Below are positions 18,494 to 51,215 of a stretch of DNA of 51,215 bases, in pieces (the stretch's first letter is position 1; each line of letters begins with the position of its first letter). The notes beneath the pieces were generated by a model. The model saw only the letters and a list, made by a program, of their open reading frames with translations. It was not told the DNA's origin and did no database searches. The stretch comes from an uncultured Verrucomicrobiota bacterium (lineage in GTDB: Bacteria; Verrucomicrobiota; Verrucomicrobiia; Opitutales; Intestinicryptomonadaceae). The position numbers and the translations under genes were made by a program. The stretch lies in assembly GCA_949298545.1 (NCBI GenBank), contig CASFWX010000044.1:1-51215 (forward strand). The letters are read 5' to 3'.

Positions 18494-18887
18494 TTGGACA
18501 TCCTTTCTTCAAAAATGTTTTAGATTTTTTACAAGTTTTTTATTTTCATGCGCAAGGGTAGCTGCAAAACTTCAATCGCCGGTGGGCGCTCTTCCGCCAT
18601 TTGGCTCGTTTTTGTTTCGGATTGCATCCTTGCGTTGCTTCTTTGCTCCAATAGGTAGAAGCGGGAATGACATTTGCTTCTTTAACGAGATATTTTAGAG
18701 TTCAAACGCATATTTGCGTTTGGAAGTTTTTCACGCTCTTTCCATATGCCATGCAAGCATCATGCTGAAAGAGGCCATCCCCGCGAAAATATCCGCAAGT
18801 ACTATTGCTTATCGCACATTTTTCAAAATACTTTAAAAAAAGTTTGCAGAAAATTCTGGCGGGGCAAAAATGGAAGGAAAGGTTTTT
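18494..18887. other. divergent intergenic region between sigma factor and GTPase cassette
   Basis: These 394 nt hold no supported gene. They must contain the promoters of both divergent units. The only clear structure is the inverted repeat at 18703-18722. The last part (18810-18887) is A/T-rich and purine-rich before the GTPase start, with AAGGAAAGG at 18874-18882. Confidence 0.5.
18703..18722. repeat. 8-bp inverted repeat (possible operator or hairpin)
   Basis: CAAACGCA and TGCGTTTG form a perfect dyad around TATT. On the plus strand GAAGTTTTTC follows, which is terminator-like, yet no plus-strand gene ends here. An operator or leader hairpin for the GTPase cassette is as likely. Confidence 0.45.
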
Positions 18888-26929: not shown

Positions 26930-28360
26930 ATGAATGATTTAAAACATACAAATAAAAGCTCCCTAATTAGGCGCAGTAAAATATTTTTTGAACGGGAAAT
27001 TTGGGAGATGTCGCTGTCGGGAATGAGTGCTTGGAAGACATTTTTCGTATCCGCTATAAAAGTCGTGGTGACGACTCTCAGCGGAATTGTCAACAAGCGC
27101 ATTCTCGTGCAGGCTTCTTCCCTGTCTTATGCAACCCTATTGGCGATAGGGCCGATATTGGCCATAACCATCCTCTTCTCGGGAATATTTTTTAAGGACA
27201 AGGGCGAGGGATTTATATACGGAAAAATTATAGACGCCGCAACTTTCGTCATTCCCGCGTTCAACGAAATGGCGCCCCAAGACGCAATGACGGAGGGCGA
27301 AAAGGGGAGGCGTTTGAATCCGCGAGTGTTCGAATTTATAAACAATATTTCCAAGGGCAGTTCGTCTGCGGGGACTCTCGGCGTGGCTACAATGATTCTC
27401 ACTTGCCTGCTGCTCTGCATAAATATGGAGTCCGCTTTAAACTATATGTGGGAAGTCCGCAAGGGGCGCAAGTGGATTGACAGGATTGTTTTTTACTTCG
27501 CGATGATTTTTTTCGGAGCGGTAGGCACGATTTTCTGCACGACTTTTTTGGCGACTTCCAGATTGTACGGGTTCCTGAAAGACATACCGGTTTTGTCCAA
27601 TTATCTGACGGATTACGTTTCTTGGATAGCATTTATTATAGGTTTCTCGCTTTTGATCGTCATGTTGGCCTGCTTTTATAAGTTTTTCCCCTGTGCGCGG
27701 GTCCGATGGAGGCCGGCTTTTATCGGGGCTGTCGTGGTGTCGCTGCTGCTAATCCTCAACAATAAAATGTCCTTCCTTTACATAAGCTACATTGTCAAAC
27801 AGCAGAACTTTTACGGCTATTTGGCAATAGTGGCAGTGGCGATGTTCAGCCTTTATGTATTTTGGGTAATGATTCTTTCGGGCGGCATGATCGCTTATGC
27901 AGTTCAGTATGTCGATGTGCTTTCCGACGAGGACGCCTGGCGCAAAATGGGATACCGCGCAAAAGGCATGGCGGCTCTGGCGGTCTTTTCGCGCGTTTGC
28001 GCCTCTTTCGGGAAATCGGCGCTTTCCAATCCGGACGCGCCAACGCTTGAAACTTTGAGCTCGGCATTGCATCTGCCGCGCAAAGTGGTCAGCGAATGCG
28101 CGGATTGGCTCGTCTCAAAAAATCTCGTCTGCCGCGCCGAAGTATTAAACTCTTCGGAATTTTGTTTTAAGCCGGCTGTTTCGCCCGAAAAAGTGACCTT
28201 ATCGCTCTTTTTTGAAAGCATGAGTTCCCAAAAGGGCGACGATTTGATCATGGATTTGCTCGCGCGTTCGGATCCCGCCGCGGCGTGCGCAGAGGCGGCT
28301 TTGGCGGAATTTTCCAAAACTGATTTGATGAAGAAGAACCTGGCGGAAATACTAAGCTGA
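26930..28360 (+). CDS. YihY/BrkB-family inner-membrane protein with C-terminal winged-helix-like domain
   Basis: The 476-residue protein has the YihY/BrkB membrane domain of about six helices (residues 45-325), with the typical ILVQASSLSYATLLAIGPIL first helix and a late YFAMIFFGAVGTIFC segment. The C-terminal 130 residues look like a MarR-like winged helix (LETLSSALHLPRKVVSECAD and WLVSKNLVCRAE), an extension known in many homologues. The family was once annotated as RNase BN in error; its real function is unknown. Stop and next start overlap (TGATG), coupling it to pdxH. Confidence 0.9.
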   Translation: MNDLKHTNKSSLIRRSKIFFEREIWEMSLSGMSAWKTFFVSAIKVVVTTLSGIVNKRILVQASSLSYATLLAIGPILAITILFSGIFFKDKGEGFIYGKIIDAATFVIPAFNEMAPQDAMTEGEKGRRLNPRVFEFINNISKGSSSAGTLGVATMILTCLLLCINMESALNYMWEVRKGRKWIDRIVFYFAMIFFGAVGTIFCTTFLATSRLYGFLKDIPVLSNYLTDYVSWIAFIIGFSLLIVMLACFYKFFPCARVRWRPAFIGAVVVSLLLILNNKMSFLYISYIVKQQNFYGYLAIVAVAMFSLYVFWVMILSGGMIAYAVQYVDVLSDEDAWRKMGYRAKGMAALAVFSRVCASFGKSALSNPDAPTLETLSSALHLPRKVVSECADWLVSKNLVCRAEVLNSSEFCFKPAVSPEKVTLSLFFESMSSQKGDDLIMDLLARSDPAAACAEAALAEFSKTDLMKKNLAEILS

Positions 28361-29010
28361 TGGACATTTTTAATTTTAGAAACGAATACCTCAAGTCGGG
28401 TCTCGATGAAAAAGACTTGAATCCCAATCCCTTTGAGCAGTTCGCCAAATGGTTTAAGGACGCCTGCGACTGCAACTTGAAGGAACCCAACGCAATGGCG
28501 GTGTCGACCGTCTCTCCGGCGGGGGCTCCGACAAGCAGAGTTGTGCTCTTGAAATCGTGGGACGAGAGGGGGTTCGTCTTTTTTACAAACTACTCCAGCG
28601 CGAAGGCGCGGGATATCGCATCAAACAACAATGTAAGCGCGCTTTTCATATGGCTCGACCTCGAGAGGCAGCTGCGCATAAACGGAAAAGCCGAAAAGGT
28701 TTCCACCGCTGAATCGCTGAGATACTTTTTAAGCAGGCCTTTCGGAAGCCGCCTGGGGGCGTGGGTGTCTCACCAGAGCAGCATAATAACGTCCCGATCG
28801 CTTCTCGAAATGCAGTTCGACAAGATGAAGCGCAAGTTTGCCGACGGCAAAGTCCCCTTGCCAGATTTTTGGGGGGGATTCCGCATAGTGCCGAGTTATT
28901 TTGAATTTTGGCAAGGCAGGGAAAACCGGCTTCACGACAGATTTGCATATTCTTCGGAAATATCCAATGACGGAGAAAAAGTCTGGAAAATAAACCGCCT
29001 CGCCCCATAA
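28360..29010 (+). CDS. pdxH: pyridoxamine 5'-phosphate oxidase
   Basis: PdxH oxidises pyridoxine or pyridoxamine 5'-phosphate to PLP with FMN. The 216-residue length fits. Family signs are NAMAVSTVSPAGAPTSRVVL, GFVFFTNYSSAKARDI, RQLRINGKAEKVS, SRPFGSRLGAWVSHQSS and the end WQGRENRLHDRFAY with WKINRLAP, which hold the FMN and substrate contacts. It is cytosolic and overlaps the YihY gene stop by one base. Confidence 0.95.
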   Translation: MDIFNFRNEYLKSGLDEKDLNPNPFEQFAKWFKDACDCNLKEPNAMAVSTVSPAGAPTSRVVLLKSWDERGFVFFTNYSSAKARDIASNNNVSALFIWLDLERQLRINGKAEKVSTAESLRYFLSRPFGSRLGAWVSHQSSIITSRSLLEMQFDKMKRKFADGKVPLPDFWGGFRIVPSYFEFWQGRENRLHDRFAYSSEISNDGEKVWKINRLAP

Positions 29011-29023
29011 TGCTATTTTTGAC

Positions 29024-30061
29024 ATGCAAAAGAAAGAACACTCACTCAGGCCCAAACGCATAACGATAAAAGACATAGCCAAATATTGCGATTTGTCGAT
29101 AGGCGCCGTTTCAAGCGTCCTTCAAAATAAACAGGTCGAAAGGCGCCTCCCGCGAAGTACGGTTAAAAAAGTTTCAAATGCGGTCCGCAAGCTTGGTTAC
29201 ATACCTGATCTTGGCGCGCGCAGGCTCAGGATTTCAAATTACGGCAAGACTCCCATTGTCATGGCTCTCTTGAGCTCCTACGAGGCTCCGCTTAACGCCA
29301 TCACGACTTTTCTATTTCAGATGAGGAATGTCATAGATTCCACTCCCGCCATCTCCGAGCGCTTCGACGTTTCAATATCAATGGAGATGTTTCGGGCTGG
29401 ACATTTGAGGGAGAAAAAATCTGTGCTCGCCGGAAATTCTTTCAACGCGGCGATTATAGCAAACACGACAAAGGAGGACGACGAATTTCTCAGTTCGGCT
29501 TTTCTCCCTTATCCCAACGTTTTGGCTGGCCGCAGAATAGACGGTTATTACGGCGTAGTCGATCCTCCAAGCCACGGTTCTGAAGTGGCAGCGCTTTTTA
29601 AGAAGGCGGGAAAAAAACGTTTGGCGGTAATTTACGGAACCCCCATGACTCAACTCACCAGAAACCGCGTGGAAGGTTTCGTCAATGCCATGAACGGCGA
29701 CGTCATCAGGGTTGAATCCCCGGCGCTGAACGAGTTGTCGGGTTACGAGACCGTGCGCAATTACCTTGCGAAAGGTGTTCGCTTCGACGGTTTGTTTTGC
29801 GTGACCGACTCTTTTGCAATGGGCGCATACAGGGCAATAAAAGGGTTCGGCTTGAGAATACCGCAGGACGTCGGGGTAATTGGAATAGGCGATTACTCTT
29901 ATGCCGATTATTTCGATCCTCCCCTGACCACAGTGGGCGTAATAAATTCAGAATTCGCATATCAAGGCAGCATGCTCTTGATAAAGCAGATTACGGGCGA
30001 ATTAAAAGATCCGGAAATCATAGAGCTTAAAGTAAACACAATCGAGCGGGCCTCGCTTTAG
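29024..30061 (+). CDS. LacI-family transcriptional regulator
   Basis: The N-terminus is a LacI helix-turn-helix with hinge: ITIKDIAKYCDLSIGAVSSV (13-32) and LPRSTVKKVSNAVRKLGYIP, then ARRLR. The rest is a periplasmic-binding-type effector domain ending in GVIGIGDYSYADYFDPPLTT and VGVINSEFAYQGSMLLIKQI. The spread of residues before LQNK and the RRLP stretch differ from E. coli LacI. Its gene lies directly upstream of, and in the same direction as, the kdgK-tct-eda operon, whose promoter has two palindromes; it is the best candidate to bind them. The ligand would be a sugar acid, by inference. It starts 13 nt after pdxH without a clear ribosome site. Confidence 0.92.
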   Translation: MQKKEHSLRPKRITIKDIAKYCDLSIGAVSSVLQNKQVERRLPRSTVKKVSNAVRKLGYIPDLGARRLRISNYGKTPIVMALLSSYEAPLNAITTFLFQMRNVIDSTPAISERFDVSISMEMFRAGHLREKKSVLAGNSFNAAIIANTTKEDDEFLSSAFLPYPNVLAGRRIDGYYGVVDPPSHGSEVAALFKKAGKKRLAVIYGTPMTQLTRNRVEGFVNAMNGDVIRVESPALNELSGYETVRNYLAKGVRFDGLFCVTDSFAMGAYRAIKGFGLRIPQDVGVIGIGDYSYADYFDPPLTTVGVINSEFAYQGSMLLIKQITGELKDPEIIELKVNTIERASL

Positions 30062-30177: not shown

Positions 30178-30199
30178 TTAGATAAAATATTTTATCTAA
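30178..30199. promoter_or_regulatory. operator 1: perfect 22-bp palindrome upstream of kdgK
   Basis: TTAGATAAAAT is followed immediately by its exact reverse complement. The site lies just upstream of a -35-like TTGACT. Its centre is 42 bp, about four helical turns, from operator 2. A dimeric repressor such as the adjacent LacI-family protein is the likely ligand. Confidence 0.65.
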
Positions 30200-30203
30200 A
30201 GGC

Positions 30204-30230
30204 TTGACTCGCTTGGAAAATAAATAAAAT
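30204..30230 (+). promoter_or_regulatory. candidate promoter of the kdgK-tctCBA-eda operon
   Basis: TTGACT (30204-30209) and TAAAAT (30225-30230) are separated by 15 nt, shorter than ideal. The -35 lies between the two palindromes and the -10 is inside operator 2, which fits repression by a bound dimer. Confidence 0.45.
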
Positions 30231-30241
30231 GTTTTGCCTAA
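30220..30241. promoter_or_regulatory. operator 2: degenerate copy of the kdgK palindrome
   Basis: ATAAATAAAAT followed by GTTTTGCCTAA matches operator 1 at 17 of 22 positions. It covers the candidate -10 element. The region is A/T-rich, so part of the match could be chance. Confidence 0.5.
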
Positions 30242-30323: not shown

Positions 30324-31412
30324 ATGAAGATACTATGCTTTGGAGAAGTGATGCTCAGGCTGTCAGCGCCCAGGCACCAACTTTTATTGCAATCCGTTCC
30401 CGGAGAGCTTTGCGCCACATTTGGAGGGGCGGAAGCCAATGTTGCATGGGGAATATCAAGGCTCGGAGGAGAGTCGTCGTTTGTCACGGCTTTGCCGGAC
30501 AACCCAATGGCACGCGCCTGCATAAATCAACTCCGCGGAATAGGAGTGGACGTTTCGGGAGTGATATTCGGAGCGGGGCGCATGGGGACTTATTACGTCG
30601 AAGCGGGGGCAAACCAGCTTTCGAGCAAAGTGTATTACGACAGGGAATACTCGCTCGTTTCACAGACGCCTTTCGAGGCATACGATTTTGATGGAGCTCT
30701 CAGAGGCGTCTCGCGCGTCCATCTCAGCGGGATTACACCCGCTATTTCCGAGACGGCGGCTTCAGCGTGCATAAAACTTGCAGGTTTGGCGCGTTCAAAA
30801 GGCGTGGCGGTTTCGTGCGACCTGAATTTTAGGGGCAAACTTTGGAAATGGCGAACCGGAGTTGCGGCGCGAGATCTGGCGAGGGAAATTATGCCCGATA
30901 TACTCTGCAATACAGACTTGGTAATAGGAAACGAAGAGGACGCTTTTGACGTATTAGGCATAAAATCCGGAGAAAGCGACGTTGACAGCGGCAGACTTGA
31001 TATTTCCGGATACAAATGCACGGCGCGGAAAATATCGGAGAAATTTCCCAGTGTGAAGAAAGTTGCGTTCACCCTGCGCGAGAGCGTTTCAGCCACGCAC
31101 AATAATTGGGGGGCGATGATATACAGCGCATCTGGCGATTTTATCGCGCTGGCGCCGCTGGGCGGAGGCGGCGATTATATGCCATATAAAATAAAAAATA
31201 TAATTGACAGGGTCGGCGGCGGAGATTCCTTCGCGGCGGGTCTCATATACGGCCTCGACAGCGGAGAGTTTGCCTGCGACGCCGAAGCGCTTTCTTTTGC
31301 CGTAGCGAATTCCTGCCTTGCGCATTCTGTGTCGGGGGACTATAACTACGTTTCAAAATCCGACGTGCTTGCTCTGATGAGGGGTTCGGCTTCGGGAAGG
31401 GTTCAACGTTAA
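30324..31412 (+). CDS. kdgK: 2-dehydro-3-deoxygluconokinase (PfkB family)
   Basis: KdgK phosphorylates 2-keto-3-deoxygluconate (KDG) to KDPG. The PfkB family signs are KILCFGEVMLRLSAP at the start, GGAEANVAWGISRLG, CDLNFRGKLW and the catalytic GGGDSFAAGL near the end. The GEVMLRL start and NFRGKLW are typical of KDG kinases. The product, 362 residues, is cytosolic. I place the start at ATG 30324, where homologues begin; ATG 30294 would add ten residues. It heads the operon kdgK-tctC-tctB-tctA-eda, and its product is the substrate of the eda aldolase, which supports the substrate call. Regulation by the two operators upstream is likely. Confidence 0.88.
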   Translation: MKILCFGEVMLRLSAPRHQLLLQSVPGELCATFGGAEANVAWGISRLGGESSFVTALPDNPMARACINQLRGIGVDVSGVIFGAGRMGTYYVEAGANQLSSKVYYDREYSLVSQTPFEAYDFDGALRGVSRVHLSGITPAISETAASACIKLAGLARSKGVAVSCDLNFRGKLWKWRTGVAARDLAREIMPDILCNTDLVIGNEEDAFDVLGIKSGESDVDSGRLDISGYKCTARKISEKFPSVKKVAFTLRESVSATHNNWGAMIYSASGDFIALAPLGGGGDYMPYKIKNIIDRVGGGDSFAAGLIYGLDSGEFACDAEALSFAVANSCLAHSVSGDYNYVSKSDVLALMRGSASGRVQR

Positions 31413-31427
31413 CTTTCAGATGTTTAA

Positions 31428-32399
31428 ATGCGCGTAAAATACGCAGTATCCTGTGCTGTTATTTTGGCGGTTCTTGCGTGGTGCGCATGGTGCGCGATAA
31501 CGCGCGGGAGCGACATTGGCGCGTATCCATCAAAATATTTGGCGCTCATATGCCCGTTTTCTGCGGGAGGGGGGACAGATCTGCTCTCAAGGACATGCGC
31601 GTCGGAGCTCTCAAAGTCTCTCGGCAAGCCCGTAGCGGTATTTAATATTACGGGCGGGGCAGGCACGCTTGGCTTCATCGAGGGCGCTGGCGCCCCGGCG
31701 GATGGCTATACGCTTACTATGTTGACATTTGAAATTAATACTCATTGGCTGCGCGGCTTCACTTCGGTGTCGGCGAAGGATTTTGAAATCGTGGCTCTGT
31801 TAAATTCCGACCCTGCATGCATAGCAGTCCCCGTGGAATCTCCGATAAAGGATATTTCGGATTTTGCAAGGGCCGGGAAATCCGGCGAGAGATTAACTGT
31901 GGGCAATTCCGGGATTGGCGGAGTATGGCACTTGGCTTCGGAGTCCTTCGCACGAAAACTCGGGATAGAGACAATTTCAATTCCTTTTGAGGGCGCTTCC
32001 GGGGCGATTACGGCAATGCTCGGCTCGCACATAGACGCAGTCTGCGCGGGCGCTGCCGAACTCAAGCGGCATGTGGATTCCGGAAAAATCCGCGTATTGG
32101 CGGTCATGGACAAAACGCGCGTGGGATATTTTCCCGATGTTCCAACGTGTGCTGAAACCGGGACTAACCTCAGGTTTTGCACATGGAGGGCAGTGGCCGT
32201 CCCGCGCGGCACTCCGCAAAACGTAATAGAATTGTTGGCTGCGAAACTCGAAGATTTTTCAAAATCCGGGTCTGCCGATGATTTTGCAAAGCGCACGGGT
32301 ACGAATATAGCATTTAGAAAGGGCGACGGATTTTTGCGGGAGATCTCCGGGAGTGAAGCGGAGCTCAAGGAGTTAATGGAGCGCCTAAAACTCTTGTGA
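31428..32399 (+). CDS. tctC: TctC/Bug-family extracytoplasmic solute receptor
   Basis: The 323-residue protein begins with a membrane or signal segment (about 5-24) and has the Bug fold: PFSAGGGTDLLSR for ligand binding, NITGGAGTLGF, ADGYTLTMLT, then VGNSGIGGVWHLASE and PFEGASGAITAMLGSHIDAV. Such receptors deliver carboxylates to TctAB permeases in the periplasm. It lies 15 nt after kdgK and 6 nt before tctB, and the operon predicts a sugar acid such as KDG or a uronate as ligand. The relatives named TctC bind citrate, so the ligand is inferred from context. Confidence 0.92.
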   Translation: MRVKYAVSCAVILAVLAWCAWCAITRGSDIGAYPSKYLALICPFSAGGGTDLLSRTCASELSKSLGKPVAVFNITGGAGTLGFIEGAGAPADGYTLTMLTFEINTHWLRGFTSVSAKDFEIVALLNSDPACIAVPVESPIKDISDFARAGKSGERLTVGNSGIGGVWHLASESFARKLGIETISIPFEGASGAITAMLGSHIDAVCAGAAELKRHVDSGKIRVLAVMDKTRVGYFPDVPTCAETGTNLRFCTWRAVAVPRGTPQNVIELLAAKLEDFSKSGSADDFAKRTGTNIAFRKGDGFLREISGSEAELKELMERLKLL

Positions 32400-32405
32400 C
32401 AAGTT

Positions 32406-32858
32406 ATGAAAAATGCTTTTCTAACGCTATTCTTTTCGCTCTTTTGCGCGTATGAGGCATTTAGCCTTGCCGCCGATAAAGGCGGCATTTCAGGGGCGTC
32501 CGCTTGCCCCATGGCGGCGGCTTTGCTAATGGCGGCGTTTTCCTTGGGTGATCTGCTTTGGACACATTGCAGGGGGAAGAGAGGCAAGAAAGATTCGCCC
32601 GATGTGAGCTCTCGCAAGCCGGATTTATCTTTGGGCATATTTTTCAAGCTCGCCTTTGCGAGTGCAATTTACGCGCTTTTAATGCCCCATATCGGGTTTG
32701 TCGTTTCGACCGGTTTGTATTGTGCAGCAGTGCTTTGGATATTTTCTTATCGGGACATTCTTGTGTCTCTGGCTTTTGGGTATGCGGGAGCGGCTATATT
32801 GTATTTCGTATTTTCGGCGATTATGAAAGTGGCGCTTCCGGCGGGATTTTTGAACTAA
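32406..32858 (+). CDS. tctB: TctB small membrane subunit of tripartite tricarboxylate-type transporter
   Basis: The 150-residue protein has four hydrophobic stretches, as in the TctB/DUF1468 family: near FLTLFFSLFCAYEAFSL, MAAALLMAAFSLGDLLW, FFKLAFASAIYALLMPHIGF and DILVSLAFGYAGAAILYFVF. The loop PHIGFVVSTGLY matches the family's second half. TctB pairs with TctA in the inner membrane to form the sodium- or proton-driven permease. It sits between tctC and tctA with short gaps. Confidence 0.86.
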   Translation: MKNAFLTLFFSLFCAYEAFSLAADKGGISGASACPMAAALLMAAFSLGDLLWTHCRGKRGKKDSPDVSSRKPDLSLGIFFKLAFASAIYALLMPHIGFVVSTGLYCAAVLWIFSYRDILVSLAFGYAGAAILYFVFSAIMKVALPAGFLN

Positions 32859-32872
32859 GACTTAAACTGGCT

Positions 32873-34357
32873 ATGGATATTTTTTCCCAGATAGCTTTAA
32901 ATTTTTTAGAACCTGCATACTGGATAGCGATATGCGCTGGCGCTTTTATTGGACTCATACTTGGCGCCATACCCGGGGTTTCCGCTACAATGGCAGTTGC
33001 GCTGATTCTTCCGTTTACTTTCGGAATGCCGATAATATTTGCTCTTGCGCTCATGCTCGGCATTTACTCCGGATCCGTGTACGGTGGAAGCATTCCCGCC
33101 ATACTCTTTAAGACGCCAGGCACACCCGCCTCCGCCGCCGTTATATTCGACGGATACGCGATGACTCGGAACGGGGAGGCTGGAACGGCTTTAAAAGTTG
33201 CCGCATTCTCCATGTTGGGAGGAGGGCTGATAGGAGCTTTTATACTTCTTTTACTCGCGCCCCAGATTGCGGTTTTAGCGGTTAAGTTTGGGCCGTCGGA
33301 ATTTTTTGCAATGGCGCTTTTCGGAATACTCGTGATAGTATCCGTATCGGAAGAGCCTTTCTTTAAGACGATGGTGGCGACTCTCGCAGGGCTTATGCTT
33401 TCATGCGTTGGCATGGATCCCCTATCGGGGTGCGCGCGCTTTACGTTCGGTTGTGCCAGCCTTATGGAGGGCTTGCCATTTGTTCCGGTTTTAATCGGTC
33501 TTTTCGCGGTTGCCGGAGTCTTTGGAAGTTCCTCTGACGAGCTTATGGCGCATGGGGAAAGGCTGAAAAGTGCGGGAGGCGCTTTGATCCCCGCGCTCGG
33601 CCGCGTTTGGAGAACCGTGGCAAAATCCAGCCTTATAGGAACTTTCATCGGTTCGACTCCCGGCGCGGGATGCGATATAGCCGCTTTTGTTTCCTACGGG
33701 ATTGCGCGCAATTCGGCGGGAGACAAAGATAAGTTCGGCGCGGGTGAGCCAAAGGGAGTTGCCGCTGTCGAATCGTCGAAAGCCGCCTGTACTTCTGGAG
33801 CGCTTATACCCCTTTTATCATTGGGAATACCCGGCGATTCTGTCACGGCCATTTTAATAGGCGCTTTTATGGTCCACGGTATTGCCCCCGGGCCTTTGCT
33901 CATCGAAAATTCGGCTCCGCTGGCGTATTCAATATTTACGACTGTCGTGTTTGTTCAGATAGCCGTTTTTATTGTGGCATTTCTTTCAATCAAGTGGAGC
34001 GCGTTGGTCCTAAAGTGCGATCCGCGCTTTGTTAAGGTTTCGATACTTGCGCTTTCTATGGTCGGATCCTACGCAATGCGCAACAATATGTTTGACGTCT
34101 GGATAGCGATTATTTTTGGAATTGTGGGCGTTATAATGAGCCGCGGAAGATATCCTGTGGCTCCCTTTCTCTTGGCATTGATTCTTGGGCAAATGGCGGA
34201 AGTGAATTTTAGGCGGGCATTTTTAATAGGGGGGGATTCAGCAGCATTTATTTTTGAGCGCCCGGCGACTCTTTTCATACTTGCGCTTGCGGCGCTTTTT
34301 ATAATTTTTTCCATCGCGCGCAGGATAAAATTCCATTTTGGAAGAATAAAACAATAA
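32873..34357 (+). CDS. tctA: TctA large membrane subunit of tripartite tricarboxylate-type transporter
   Basis: From ATG 32873 the product has 494 residues, the usual TctA length, and about ten to twelve membrane helices. The family signature is GLILGAIPGVSATMAVALIL and GSVYGGSIPAILFKTPGTPA with DGYAMTRNGEAGTAL; the second copy reads IGTFIGSTPGAGCDIAAFVS and later LIPLLSLGIPGDSVTAIL. These internal repeats form the translocation path. An in-frame extension to 32558 would overlap all of tctB and is rejected. Together with TctC and TctB it probably imports a sugar acid for KdgK and Eda. Confidence 0.93.
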   Translation: MDIFSQIALNFLEPAYWIAICAGAFIGLILGAIPGVSATMAVALILPFTFGMPIIFALALMLGIYSGSVYGGSIPAILFKTPGTPASAAVIFDGYAMTRNGEAGTALKVAAFSMLGGGLIGAFILLLLAPQIAVLAVKFGPSEFFAMALFGILVIVSVSEEPFFKTMVATLAGLMLSCVGMDPLSGCARFTFGCASLMEGLPFVPVLIGLFAVAGVFGSSSDELMAHGERLKSAGGALIPALGRVWRTVAKSSLIGTFIGSTPGAGCDIAAFVSYGIARNSAGDKDKFGAGEPKGVAAVESSKAACTSGALIPLLSLGIPGDSVTAILIGAFMVHGIAPGPLLIENSAPLAYSIFTTVVFVQIAVFIVAFLSIKWSALVLKCDPRFVKVSILALSMVGSYAMRNNMFDVWIAIIFGIVGVIMSRGRYPVAPFLLALILGQMAEVNFRRAFLIGGDSAAFIFERPATLFILALAALFIIFSIARRIKFHFGRIKQ

Positions 34358-34374: not shown

Positions 34375-35007
34375 ATGCCGTCATTAAAAGAAAAACTCGA
34401 AAAATTGCGAATAGTAGCAGTTGTAAGCGTCGACAACCCTTCGGACGCCGTTGATTTGGCGGAAACCCTTTGCGAAGGCGGAATCAATGCGGTGGAAATG
34501 ACTTTGAGGTCTCCGAACGCCCTAAGGTGCATAGAGGCGGTAGTTTCCAAGGTCTCAGCAATGTGCGTAGGGGCGGGGACTGTCTTGACTCAAAATCAGG
34601 CGGAGGCCGTATCCGAAGCGGGAGCGGCATTTGCTGTGGCTCCCGGCTGCAATGCGCGCGTGCTCGAAAAGGCGCGAGAGTTGGATTTGCCTTTCGCTCC
34701 TGGCATCATGACCCCGAGCGATATTGAAAAATCTCTTGAATTCGGACTCGCCACGATGAAGTTTTTCCCCGCCGAATCAAGCGGCGGAATAAAACATTTG
34801 GAGAGCATGGCGGCCCCATACAAGCATCTCGGCGTTTCCTTCCTCCCATTGGGGGGGCTCAATGCGGAAAACATGAAAACATATTTATCTTCTCCTTTGG
34901 TTTGCGCTATAGGGGGGTCTTGGATAGCGCCGGCACCTCTGATAAAGGATAGAGATTGGAAACATATTTTACAAAACGCGAGATCCGCGGTAGCGAACCT
35001 TTCTTAA
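34375..35007 (+). CDS. eda: KDPG aldolase (2-dehydro-3-deoxyphosphogluconate aldolase)
   Basis: Eda splits KDPG into pyruvate and glyceraldehyde 3-phosphate through a Schiff-base lysine. The 210-residue TIM-barrel protein has the catalytic glutamate in AVEMTLRS (Glu41), GAGTVLT, FAVAPGCN, PFAPGIMTPSD and the Schiff-base lysine in MKFFPAES (Lys129). It closes the kdgK-tctCBA-eda operon and supplies the second step of the pathway, from KDG to central metabolism. It is cytosolic and 17 nt after tctA. Confidence 0.95.
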   Translation: MPSLKEKLEKLRIVAVVSVDNPSDAVDLAETLCEGGINAVEMTLRSPNALRCIEAVVSKVSAMCVGAGTVLTQNQAEAVSEAGAAFAVAPGCNARVLEKARELDLPFAPGIMTPSDIEKSLEFGLATMKFFPAESSGGIKHLESMAAPYKHLGVSFLPLGGLNAENMKTYLSSPLVCAIGGSWIAPAPLIKDRDWKHILQNARSAVANLS

Positions 35008-48971: not shown

Positions 48972-49667
48972 ATGCCTTCCTCCGCCGGAATACTTTATAT
49001 TGTCGCCACCCCAATAGGAAACCTTCGCGATATTTCTGAGCGCGCAATTCAAACATTGCGCGAATGCGATTTGGTTGTTTGCGAAGACACGCGGGTTACG
49101 GGCGCTTTGCTTGCCAAACTCGGAATTTCCAAGGAGATGTTTGTGTGCGAAGATTCGCGCGAAAGGAGGGTGTGCCCGGTTCTTCTCGAAAAATTGCGCG
49201 GAGGCAAAAATGTGGCTGTCGTTAGCGACGCCGGAACTCCGCTCGTAAGCGACCCAGGATTCAGGTTGGTTCGCGCTTGCCGCAAGGAGGGAATAAGCGT
49301 AGTCCCTGTGCCGGGCGCGTGTGCGGCAATGGCGGCTCTTTCCGCTTCTGGATTGCCATGCGATTCATTTCTCTTCGCTGGATTCCTTCCTCCTAAGACT
49401 TCAGCAAGGAGGAATTTTTTCGAGAAATATAAAAATTTTCCGCATACGCTGATTTTTTATGAGTCTCCGCACAGGATAGACAAATTTGTTTCCGACGCGC
49501 TCGAAATATTCGGAGAAAATAGAACAGTATGCATTGCGAAGGAAATGACAAAATTACATGAGGCATTCTTCGTGGGCCGCTTGGGAGATGTCCTAAAAGC
49601 TTTGCTTGTTGCCTCTTTGAAAGGCGAGTTTTGCGCGCTTATAGCGCCTGAAGATTTCGAGTTGTGA
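48972..49667 (+). CDS. rsmI: 16S rRNA (cytidine1402-2'-O)-methyltransferase
   Basis: RsmI methylates the 2'-O of C1402 in the ribosomal P site using S-adenosylmethionine. The 231-residue protein begins ILYIVATPIGNLRDISERAI and has CEDTRVTGALLAK, VVSDAGTPLVSDPGFRLV, FAGFLPPK and IFYESPHRI, the full signature. It is shorter than E. coli RsmI (286) because the C-terminal helical part is missing, as in several phyla. It overlaps the Ppx/GppA gene by 4 nt. Confidence 0.96.
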   Translation: MPSSAGILYIVATPIGNLRDISERAIQTLRECDLVVCEDTRVTGALLAKLGISKEMFVCEDSRERRVCPVLLEKLRGGKNVAVVSDAGTPLVSDPGFRLVRACRKEGISVVPVPGACAAMAALSASGLPCDSFLFAGFLPPKTSARRNFFEKYKNFPHTLIFYESPHRIDKFVSDALEIFGENRTVCIAKEMTKLHEAFFVGRLGDVLKALLVASLKGEFCALIAPEDFEL

Positions 49668-50599
49668 AAAGGGTCTTGGCAATAGACGTCGGATCGAACA
49701 CTATAAAGAGCCTTCTGGTTGAGAAGATCTCGGAGGGATCTTCCATATCCATAAAAAAGCTTTATGAGAAAACTTGCGAAAGGCGAATATCAAACGGGGC
49801 GGGCGGTCTTATCGACGGCGCGGAACGCCTTATAATTGACTCCATTCGGGAGTTTTTGGGCGATGCGCACCGGATTTGCGGGGGAGACTTTAAAATCGCC
49901 GCCGCCGGTACTTCCGCTTTGAGAGACGCTCCTAACGCGAAGGAAATCTTAGAATCGGTAAGGCTTGCTTCAGGGTGCGATATAAGGGTGCTTTCGGGGG
50001 TTGAGGAAGCGCGTTTGGCGCGCTTAGGCGCATTTTGCGACCCGTCCCTTTCGCGCGCGCGCCCATTAAAAACGGCTTTTTTTGATTTAGGCGGCGGAAG
50101 CATTGACATGAATCTTGGGAGAGGGGGAGACATTGTGGATTCCTGTAGCCTTCCATTAGGAGCAGTTAGATTGACAAAGAGATTTATTGGAGATGCCGCC
50201 ACTTCGCTCTCTTCGGAAGTGGCGAATGAGATGAGGTTGGATATCGAAAACATTTTAGGTAAAAATTTTTCGAGCGAAAGGATTGCCGCATATAGGCAAT
50301 CTGATATTTTAATAGCTTGCGGCGGAGCTGTGGGGGCGGCGCGAATTATAAAGGCCAGCCGCGGTATTCCTGAAACAGATAATGCGATTTCCGACTCTGA
50401 GATCCGCCAAATGTTTGCTGAGGTATCTCGGCTAAATTCCGAAGATAGGTGCAAACGCTTCCATATTTCGCCGGCGCGTGCGGATATTTTACCTGCGGCA
50501 TTTCTCGTTATTTCCGGCATCATGCAGCTCCTTAATAAGCGGGAATTATTGCACACGTTTTACAATCTTCGCTGGGGAATAGCCTCGGAGATCTTGTAG
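49664..50599 (+). CDS. ppx: Ppx/GppA-type exopolyphosphatase/guanosine pentaphosphatase
   Basis: The 311-residue protein, with a GTG start in a GTGA overlap, has the actin-like fold of the Ppx/GppA family: VLAIDVGSNTIKSLLVE, AAAGTSALRDAPN, VLSGVEEARLARLG, FFDLGGGSIDMN and PLGAVRLTKRF. It hydrolyses polyphosphate or pppGpp. It lacks the C-terminal HD-like domains of E. coli Ppx, so it is of the short form. Which substrate it prefers cannot be told. It is the last gene of the long operon. Confidence 0.92.
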   Translation: MKRVLAIDVGSNTIKSLLVEKISEGSSISIKKLYEKTCERRISNGAGGLIDGAERLIIDSIREFLGDAHRICGGDFKIAAAGTSALRDAPNAKEILESVRLASGCDIRVLSGVEEARLARLGAFCDPSLSRARPLKTAFFDLGGGSIDMNLGRGGDIVDSCSLPLGAVRLTKRFIGDAATSLSSEVANEMRLDIENILGKNFSSERIAAYRQSDILIACGGAVGAARIIKASRGIPETDNAISDSEIRQMFAEVSRLNSEDRCKRFHISPARADILPAAFLVISGIMQLLNKRELLHTFYNLRWGIASEIL

Positions 50600-50702: not shown

Positions 50703-50731
50703 TTGACATCCGTTAAATAAAAAGTTTTATC
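50703..50731 (+). promoter_or_regulatory. candidate sigma-70 promoter
   Basis: TTGACA (50703-50708) and TTTATC (50726-50731) are 17 nt apart, an ideal spacing. It points toward the secreted-protein gene at 51051. Confidence 0.55.
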
Positions 50732-50734
50732 TGA
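50713..50734. promoter_or_regulatory. third copy of the kdgK-type operator
   Basis: TTAAATAAAAA followed by GTTTTATCTGA matches kdgK operator 1 at 18 of 22 positions and keeps most of its symmetry. It spans the spacer and -10 of the candidate promoter, where a bound repressor would block transcription. Confidence 0.5.
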
Positions 50735-51050: not shown

Positions 51051-51215
51051 ATGAAAAATAGAACTATCACAGCTCTTGGCGCATATTGCGCCTTTGCATG
51101 CGGATTGAATGCCGCAGACTATTATTTTACAAATGCCGGCGGCTCATCGTGCGAGATGAACGACGGAGCAATTTATAGTATAACGTGGTCAGACGCAAAC
51201 GCATGTAGCGCAACA
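51051..51215 (+). CDS. secreted protein, N-terminal part only (cut by right edge)
   Basis: The 55 codons in the window start MKNRTITALGAYCAFACGLN with AAAAGG 10 nt upstream. The first 21 residues form a signal peptide with a cleavage site after LNA. The mature start (ADYYFTNAGGSSCEMNDGAI) is rich in Gly, Ser, Asn and aromatic residues and has cysteines at least at two places. Such starts are common in large surface or autotransporter-like proteins of Verrucomicrobiota, but no domain can be seen yet. It may be regulated with the sugar-acid operon through the operator-like site upstream. Confidence 0.7.
   Translation, partial: MKNRTITALGAYCAFACGLNAADYYFTNAGGSSCEMNDGAIYSITWSDANACSAT

Follow-up and report, generated by a model that had tools for sequence, protein, structure and literature searches.

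What reads the pair of palindromes lying between a LacI-family regulator gene and an operon for a probable KDG kinase, a tripartite tricarboxylate-type transporter and a KDPG/KHG aldolase, and do two sites at a helical distance mean that two dimers bind there together? The palindromes lie within a window (the whole stretch of DNA that was analysed) of 51,215 nucleotides, whose relevant features are as follows.

Positions 29024 to 30061, plus strand: LacI-family regulator gene, 345 aa, the proposed repressor (Pfam LacI and Peripla_BP_3; alignments).
Positions 30178 to 30199, no strand: operator 1, perfect 22-bp palindrome TTAGATAAAATATTTTATCTAA, centre TA.
Positions 30204 to 30209, plus strand: putative −35 hexamer TTGACT (read from the sequence; not flagged by the promoter scanner).
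Positions 30220 to 30241, no strand: operator 2, ATAAATAAAATGTTTTGCCTAA, 17/22 identical to operator 1, centre TG.
Positions 30225 to 30230, plus strand: putative −10 hexamer TAAAAT, 15 bp after the −35 (read from the sequence).
Positions 30324 to 31412, plus strand: PfkB-family kinase, probable KDG kinase (Pfam PfkB).
Positions 31428 to 32399, plus strand: TctC, receptor of a tripartite tricarboxylate-type transporter (Pfam).
Positions 32406 to 32858, plus strand: TctB (Pfam).
Positions 32858 to 34357, plus strand: TctA (Pfam), with a putative start codon.
Positions 34375 to 35007, plus strand: KDPG/KHG aldolase (Pfam; TIGR01182 over cut-off).
Positions 50713 to 50734, no strand: further operator with the same motif, TTAAATAAAAAGTTTTATCTGA, beginning 4 bp after TTGACA (50703 to 50708).

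The original prediction of a perfect palindrome followed by a 17/22 copy was borne out by the sequence: the two centres, at 30188.5 and 30230.5, are 42 bp apart and lie at −135.5 and −93.5 relative to the kinase ATG at 30324. Such an arrangement is not readily produced at random. When the 262-bp intergenic region was simulated 4000 times as Markov-1 sequence, a perfect 22-bp palindrome arose in six cases, and it arose once in 2 Mb of window-like sequence; copies of site 1 identical at 17 or more of 22 positions appeared in 0.37% of 222-bp Markov-1 versions; allowing up to three mismatches, a search with site 1 returned only site 1 itself in the window and nothing in 100 shuffles of it. Taken together, the two sites are far beyond chance. 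The gene downstream is probably a KDG kinase, judging by its family and its neighbour, with the nearest NCBIfam models, all below cut-off, including KDG kinases and a KDPG aldolase/kinase fusion.

The best explanation is that a LacI-family repressor, most probably the one encoded next to them, uses the palindromes as operators to control the KDG-kinase/TctCBA/KDPG-aldolase operon, and we consider this reading probable. The regulator passes no NCBIfam equivalog cut-off; alignments place its recognition helix at SIGAVSSVLQN and its hinge at GARRLR. In length, C-terminal end and hinge leucine it resembles E. coli PurR, a dimeric LacI-family repressor, so that a dimer is expected here too, whereas ligand and operator differ from those of PurR and the recognition helix carries I-G..S at the main contact positions. 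As long as no ligand is present, a PurR-like dimer on operator 2 would cover the spacer and the −10 hexamer and thereby block RNA polymerase, and operator 1, as an auxiliary site about 48 bp upstream of the presumed transcription start, would either strengthen occupancy or block the upstream promoter region. A breakdown product of uronic acids would then release the repressor, with KDG as the natural candidate.

This scheme depends on a promoter whose −35 element had been placed between the two sites and whose −10 element had been placed in the second. Both hexamers are present, in the order TTGACT, 10 bp, operator 2, and TAAAAT, the best −10-like hexamer at the operon, does fall within operator 2; the spacer that they imply is less canonical. 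A consensus scanner, which allows spacers of 16–18 bp, reported no plus-strand promoter at the operator pair, where the two putative hexamers TTGACT and TAAAAT are 15 bp apart.

A search of the genome with the full palindrome (the original prediction had proposed one with the half-site) extended the pattern to two further promoters. With TNAGATAAAANNTTTTATCTNA and at most two mismatches, three sites were found in 1.88 Mb (operator 1 at the KDG operon, window 50713–50734 and G000:C1:15825–15846), and the reversed pattern used as a control gave none; these genome-wide counts come from pattern searches with at most three mismatches, in which weaker sites may be missed. At both additional sites the operator starts 4 bp after TTGACA and covers TTTATC at 17-bp spacing, so that a protein bound to it would block the TTGACA-17-TTTATC promoter. 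Each has one convincing site, with AG as the central pair. The C1 site precedes two minus-strand genes, encoding a BNR-repeat protein and a GH28 polygalacturonase, and the site at 50713 lies upstream of an ORF at 51051 that is cut by the contig end; its distance of about 330 bp from that start codon is greater than usual, and no relatives of the first 55 residues of the ORF were found. Another match, at window 50241, lies inside an ORF (49664–50599) and was taken as chance. By the C1 operator, TGTTTTGCC, as in operator 2, recurs downstream with its centre 16 bp away (L062 6781–6860, minus strand), possibly as a weak overlapping second site.

A KdgR-type regulator controls KDG kinase and KDPG aldolase and senses KDG; here the operators precede the probable KDG kinase/aldolase operon and a GH28 operon, and KDG would be a candidate ligand. 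No site was found at a UxaC/UxuA-like operon at C79, which has its own, different LacI gene; the UxaC gene sits in this separate operon, as by eye does UxuA, and a search of the genome gave no KduI. The regulon would therefore cover the lower KDG steps, uptake and polygalacturonase. What emerges is a candidate operator open to test, with a regulon of three promoters (those of the KDG operon, the GH28 operon and one cut-off gene); for the LacI subfamily concerned, no described motif was found in the open-access papers searched.

Further support for the family assignment comes from related loci. Close relatives of the regulator are scattered, occurring in 23 of 373 genomes of the order at E ≤ 1e-30, and a search of genome contigs with the LacI protein alone gave one distant relative only; palindromes such as ATTGCTAAATGGATTTAGCATT and GTTGCTAAATGGATTTAGCAAC recur beside related LacI genes outside the family. 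Palindromic expectation-maximisation on the intergenic flanks of subfamily loci, with the window's own family left out, converged on ATTGCTAAAACGTTTTAGCAAT. Among about 51,200 window positions this blind motif puts 30178 in second, 50713 in fourth and 30220 in eighth place, and it places the C1 site first in the 7.9-kb stretch around it; its half-sites align in register with those of the genome sites, nTnGnTAAA being common to both. The top score in the window, slightly above that of operator 1, goes to TCTTCAAAAATGTTTTAGATTT at 18506–18527.

Regulators that come closest to this one in their recognition helix (first two contact positions IG or VG) are accompanied by sites such as TAAACAAAAACGTTTTTGCAAA and TTAGAAAAAACGTTTTTGTTAT, and a motif built from six sites beside such regulators ranks 30178, 30220 and 50713 first, second and third in the window. 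Only 0.13% of 3000 column-shuffled versions place all three in the top three, and with a larger site set none of 3000 shuffled motifs equalled the true one. The blind result is nonetheless the fairer test, because the six helix-matched sites had been chosen manually among the palindromes. A motif derived as a control from LacI loci outside the subfamily ended up GC-rich and of no use, and its place was taken by column-shuffled motifs. The genome sites share the motif of operators beside related LacI genes, ranking at the top of the window against shuffled controls, and the prediction of LacI-family operators at a sugar-acid operon holds, given the adjacent LacI gene, the motif at two more promoters and the recovery of the sites by a motif from other families. 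From the sites and their relatedness to the subfamily operators, their identity as LacI-family operators appears well supported by computation, and the conserved subfamily motif ATTGCTAAAACGTTTTAGCAAT may help in mapping sugar regulons throughout the order.

Conservation in relatives, which had been set as a test, gives a divided answer: similar sites occur beside LacI-subfamily genes and at sugar genes of G008, and none was found upstream of ten KDG-kinase orthologues in relatives. In nine of these ten genomes a close LacI orthologue is missing as well (best E weaker than 1e-9); the tenth, G008, has two LacI orthologues, yet no site at the kinase gene. It carries two similar sites with CG centres, one upstream of a D-lyxose isomerase gene and one upstream of a further PfkB-like kinase gene, the former (TTGGATAAAACGTTTTATCGAA) lying 11–12 bp after TTGACA in a similar layout. 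In two relatives, a pair of subfamily operators stands 79–80 bp apart between a LacI gene and a TonB-dependent receptor gene (L045 1312/1391; L046 1284/1364). Similar palindromes, TCAGATAAAAATTTTGTTCTGA and TCAGATAAAACATTTCTTCTGA, are found between plsX-like and fabH-like genes (L076 and L081, 1501–1522) in G005 and G004, which have no close LacI orthologue; these are perhaps an unrelated conserved regulatory element.

Comparison with the LacI-family sugar regulons of Ravcheev et al. 2014 (PMC4052901), which include KdgR, UxaR, UxuR and ExuR of the glucuronate/galacturonate pathways, reveals both agreement and departure. As in those regulons, the site is an even palindrome of 22 nt, perfect in operator 1 and within the 16–22 nt of LacI-family operators, lies within 140 bp of the start codon, and adjoins a LacI-family gene and a uronate-pathway operon; its position at −135 and −93 fits the survey, where most sites occupy the −140 to −30 zone (PMC4052901). 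Tandem sites are also common there: roughly 20% of the operons under LacI-type regulation have them upstream, and the distances between them peak at 13, 22 and 32 bp (PMC4052901). Unlike the surveyed sites, those at the KDG operon have TA and TG at the centre and those at the two other targets AG, which counts against the preferred reading inasmuch as 1173 of 1303 surveyed regulators have a central CG; the rule is not strict, 78 of 1251 even-palindrome regulators having a different or degenerate centre (PMC4052901). Also against it are the KDG-kinase orthologues without a site, including that of G008 with its LacI orthologues, and the lacI gene at 29024–30061, which has no site in front of it although 72% of the surveyed regulators are autoregulated (PMC4052901). 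The pair is very probably an ordinary one of LacI type, well supported by computation, and the general principle of such operators is well known.

The central pair also invites other views: that some regulator from outside the LacI family binds the palindrome, or that no LacI-type ligand is involved and the palindrome is an AT-rich element of a promoter or hairpin. AT-rich palindromes are indeed more easily found in AT-rich intergenic DNA, and those between plsX and fabH occur in relatives devoid of a close LacI orthologue. Such an origin is nonetheless very improbable, since a motif derived from LacI-subfamily flanks alone finds these sites and the pattern recurs at three promoters of the genome, as against none for the reversed control. 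A reading as a terminator was dropped, the stem being AT-rich with no T-run after it and the scan showing no plus-strand terminator, and the same features speak against a hairpin element.

Which LacI-family protein occupies the sites is a more delicate matter, and the claim that binding is specifically by the adjacent protein is not established. A paralogue at G000:C36 is 49% identical to the regulator and has the same recognition helix, SIGAVSSVLQN, which weighs against the preferred assignment and means that the sites may be shared. That the operators are bound mainly by this paralogue, or by both proteins with overlapping regulons as a result, is a reading to which its neighbourhood lends some colour, as it adjoins a BNR/sialidase-like gene and one of the three genome sites precedes another BNR gene; with the best sites beside the window gene and no strong site in 20 kb around the paralogue, it appears unlikely.

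Similar caution applies to the proposal that two dimers bind cooperatively on one face of the DNA and that this is essential for repression. The arithmetic of four helical turns is correct (42/10.5 = 4.0), and authors of the survey read tandem LacI sites at helical distances of 22 and 32 bp as cooperative (PMC4052901); 42 bp is the next helical multiple after 32 bp, but is not among the reported peaks (PMC4052901). The phasing alone says little: with spacings drawn at random, about three in ten would come to within 1 bp of a whole number of turns and look in phase, so that it is weak evidence for a shared face. Nor does the spacing recur: the two other targets have a single convincing site each, and paired sites in relatives are 79–80 bp apart.

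The Lac repressor acts as a tetramer, bringing distant operators together in a DNA loop. The present locus resembles the Lac repressor system in having more than one operator at one promoter, but its sites are only 42 bp apart and the regulator, whose C-terminus aligns to the end of PurR and stops where the dimeric PurR core ends, has no LacI-type C-terminal tetramerisation helix; looping is unlikely for this reason. With no tetramerisation tail, no reported peak at 42 bp and single sites at the other targets, cooperative binding is not established, its being essential for repression is unlikely, and same-face cooperation at the two sites is possible but unsupported.

A broader and bolder model would combine several of these elements: a subfamily with an unusual helix (IG..S) would, in this lineage, have shifted its half-site from TTGCTAAAAC to TTAGATAAAAY and relaxed the central CG, two paralogues with the same helix would share a small pectin/uronate regulon, and non-looping cooperation would act over 42 bp at the main operon. 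As a whole, this model is improbable.

The surroundings of the regulator and its relatives offer two further observations. In the window (28360–30061), the lacI-operator-kdgK block comes after a pdxH-like gene; in G008 (L077 118–756) the homologous pdxH-like gene is followed by a HAD gene, a similar operator and the D-lyxose isomerase, and the stretch behind pdxH may be a place where sugar genes vary. Moreover, directly downstream of a second LacI paralogue at G000:C15 lie, by eye, a 1059-aa type II Cas9-like ORF and then a Cas1-like ORF (L064 8345–12459).
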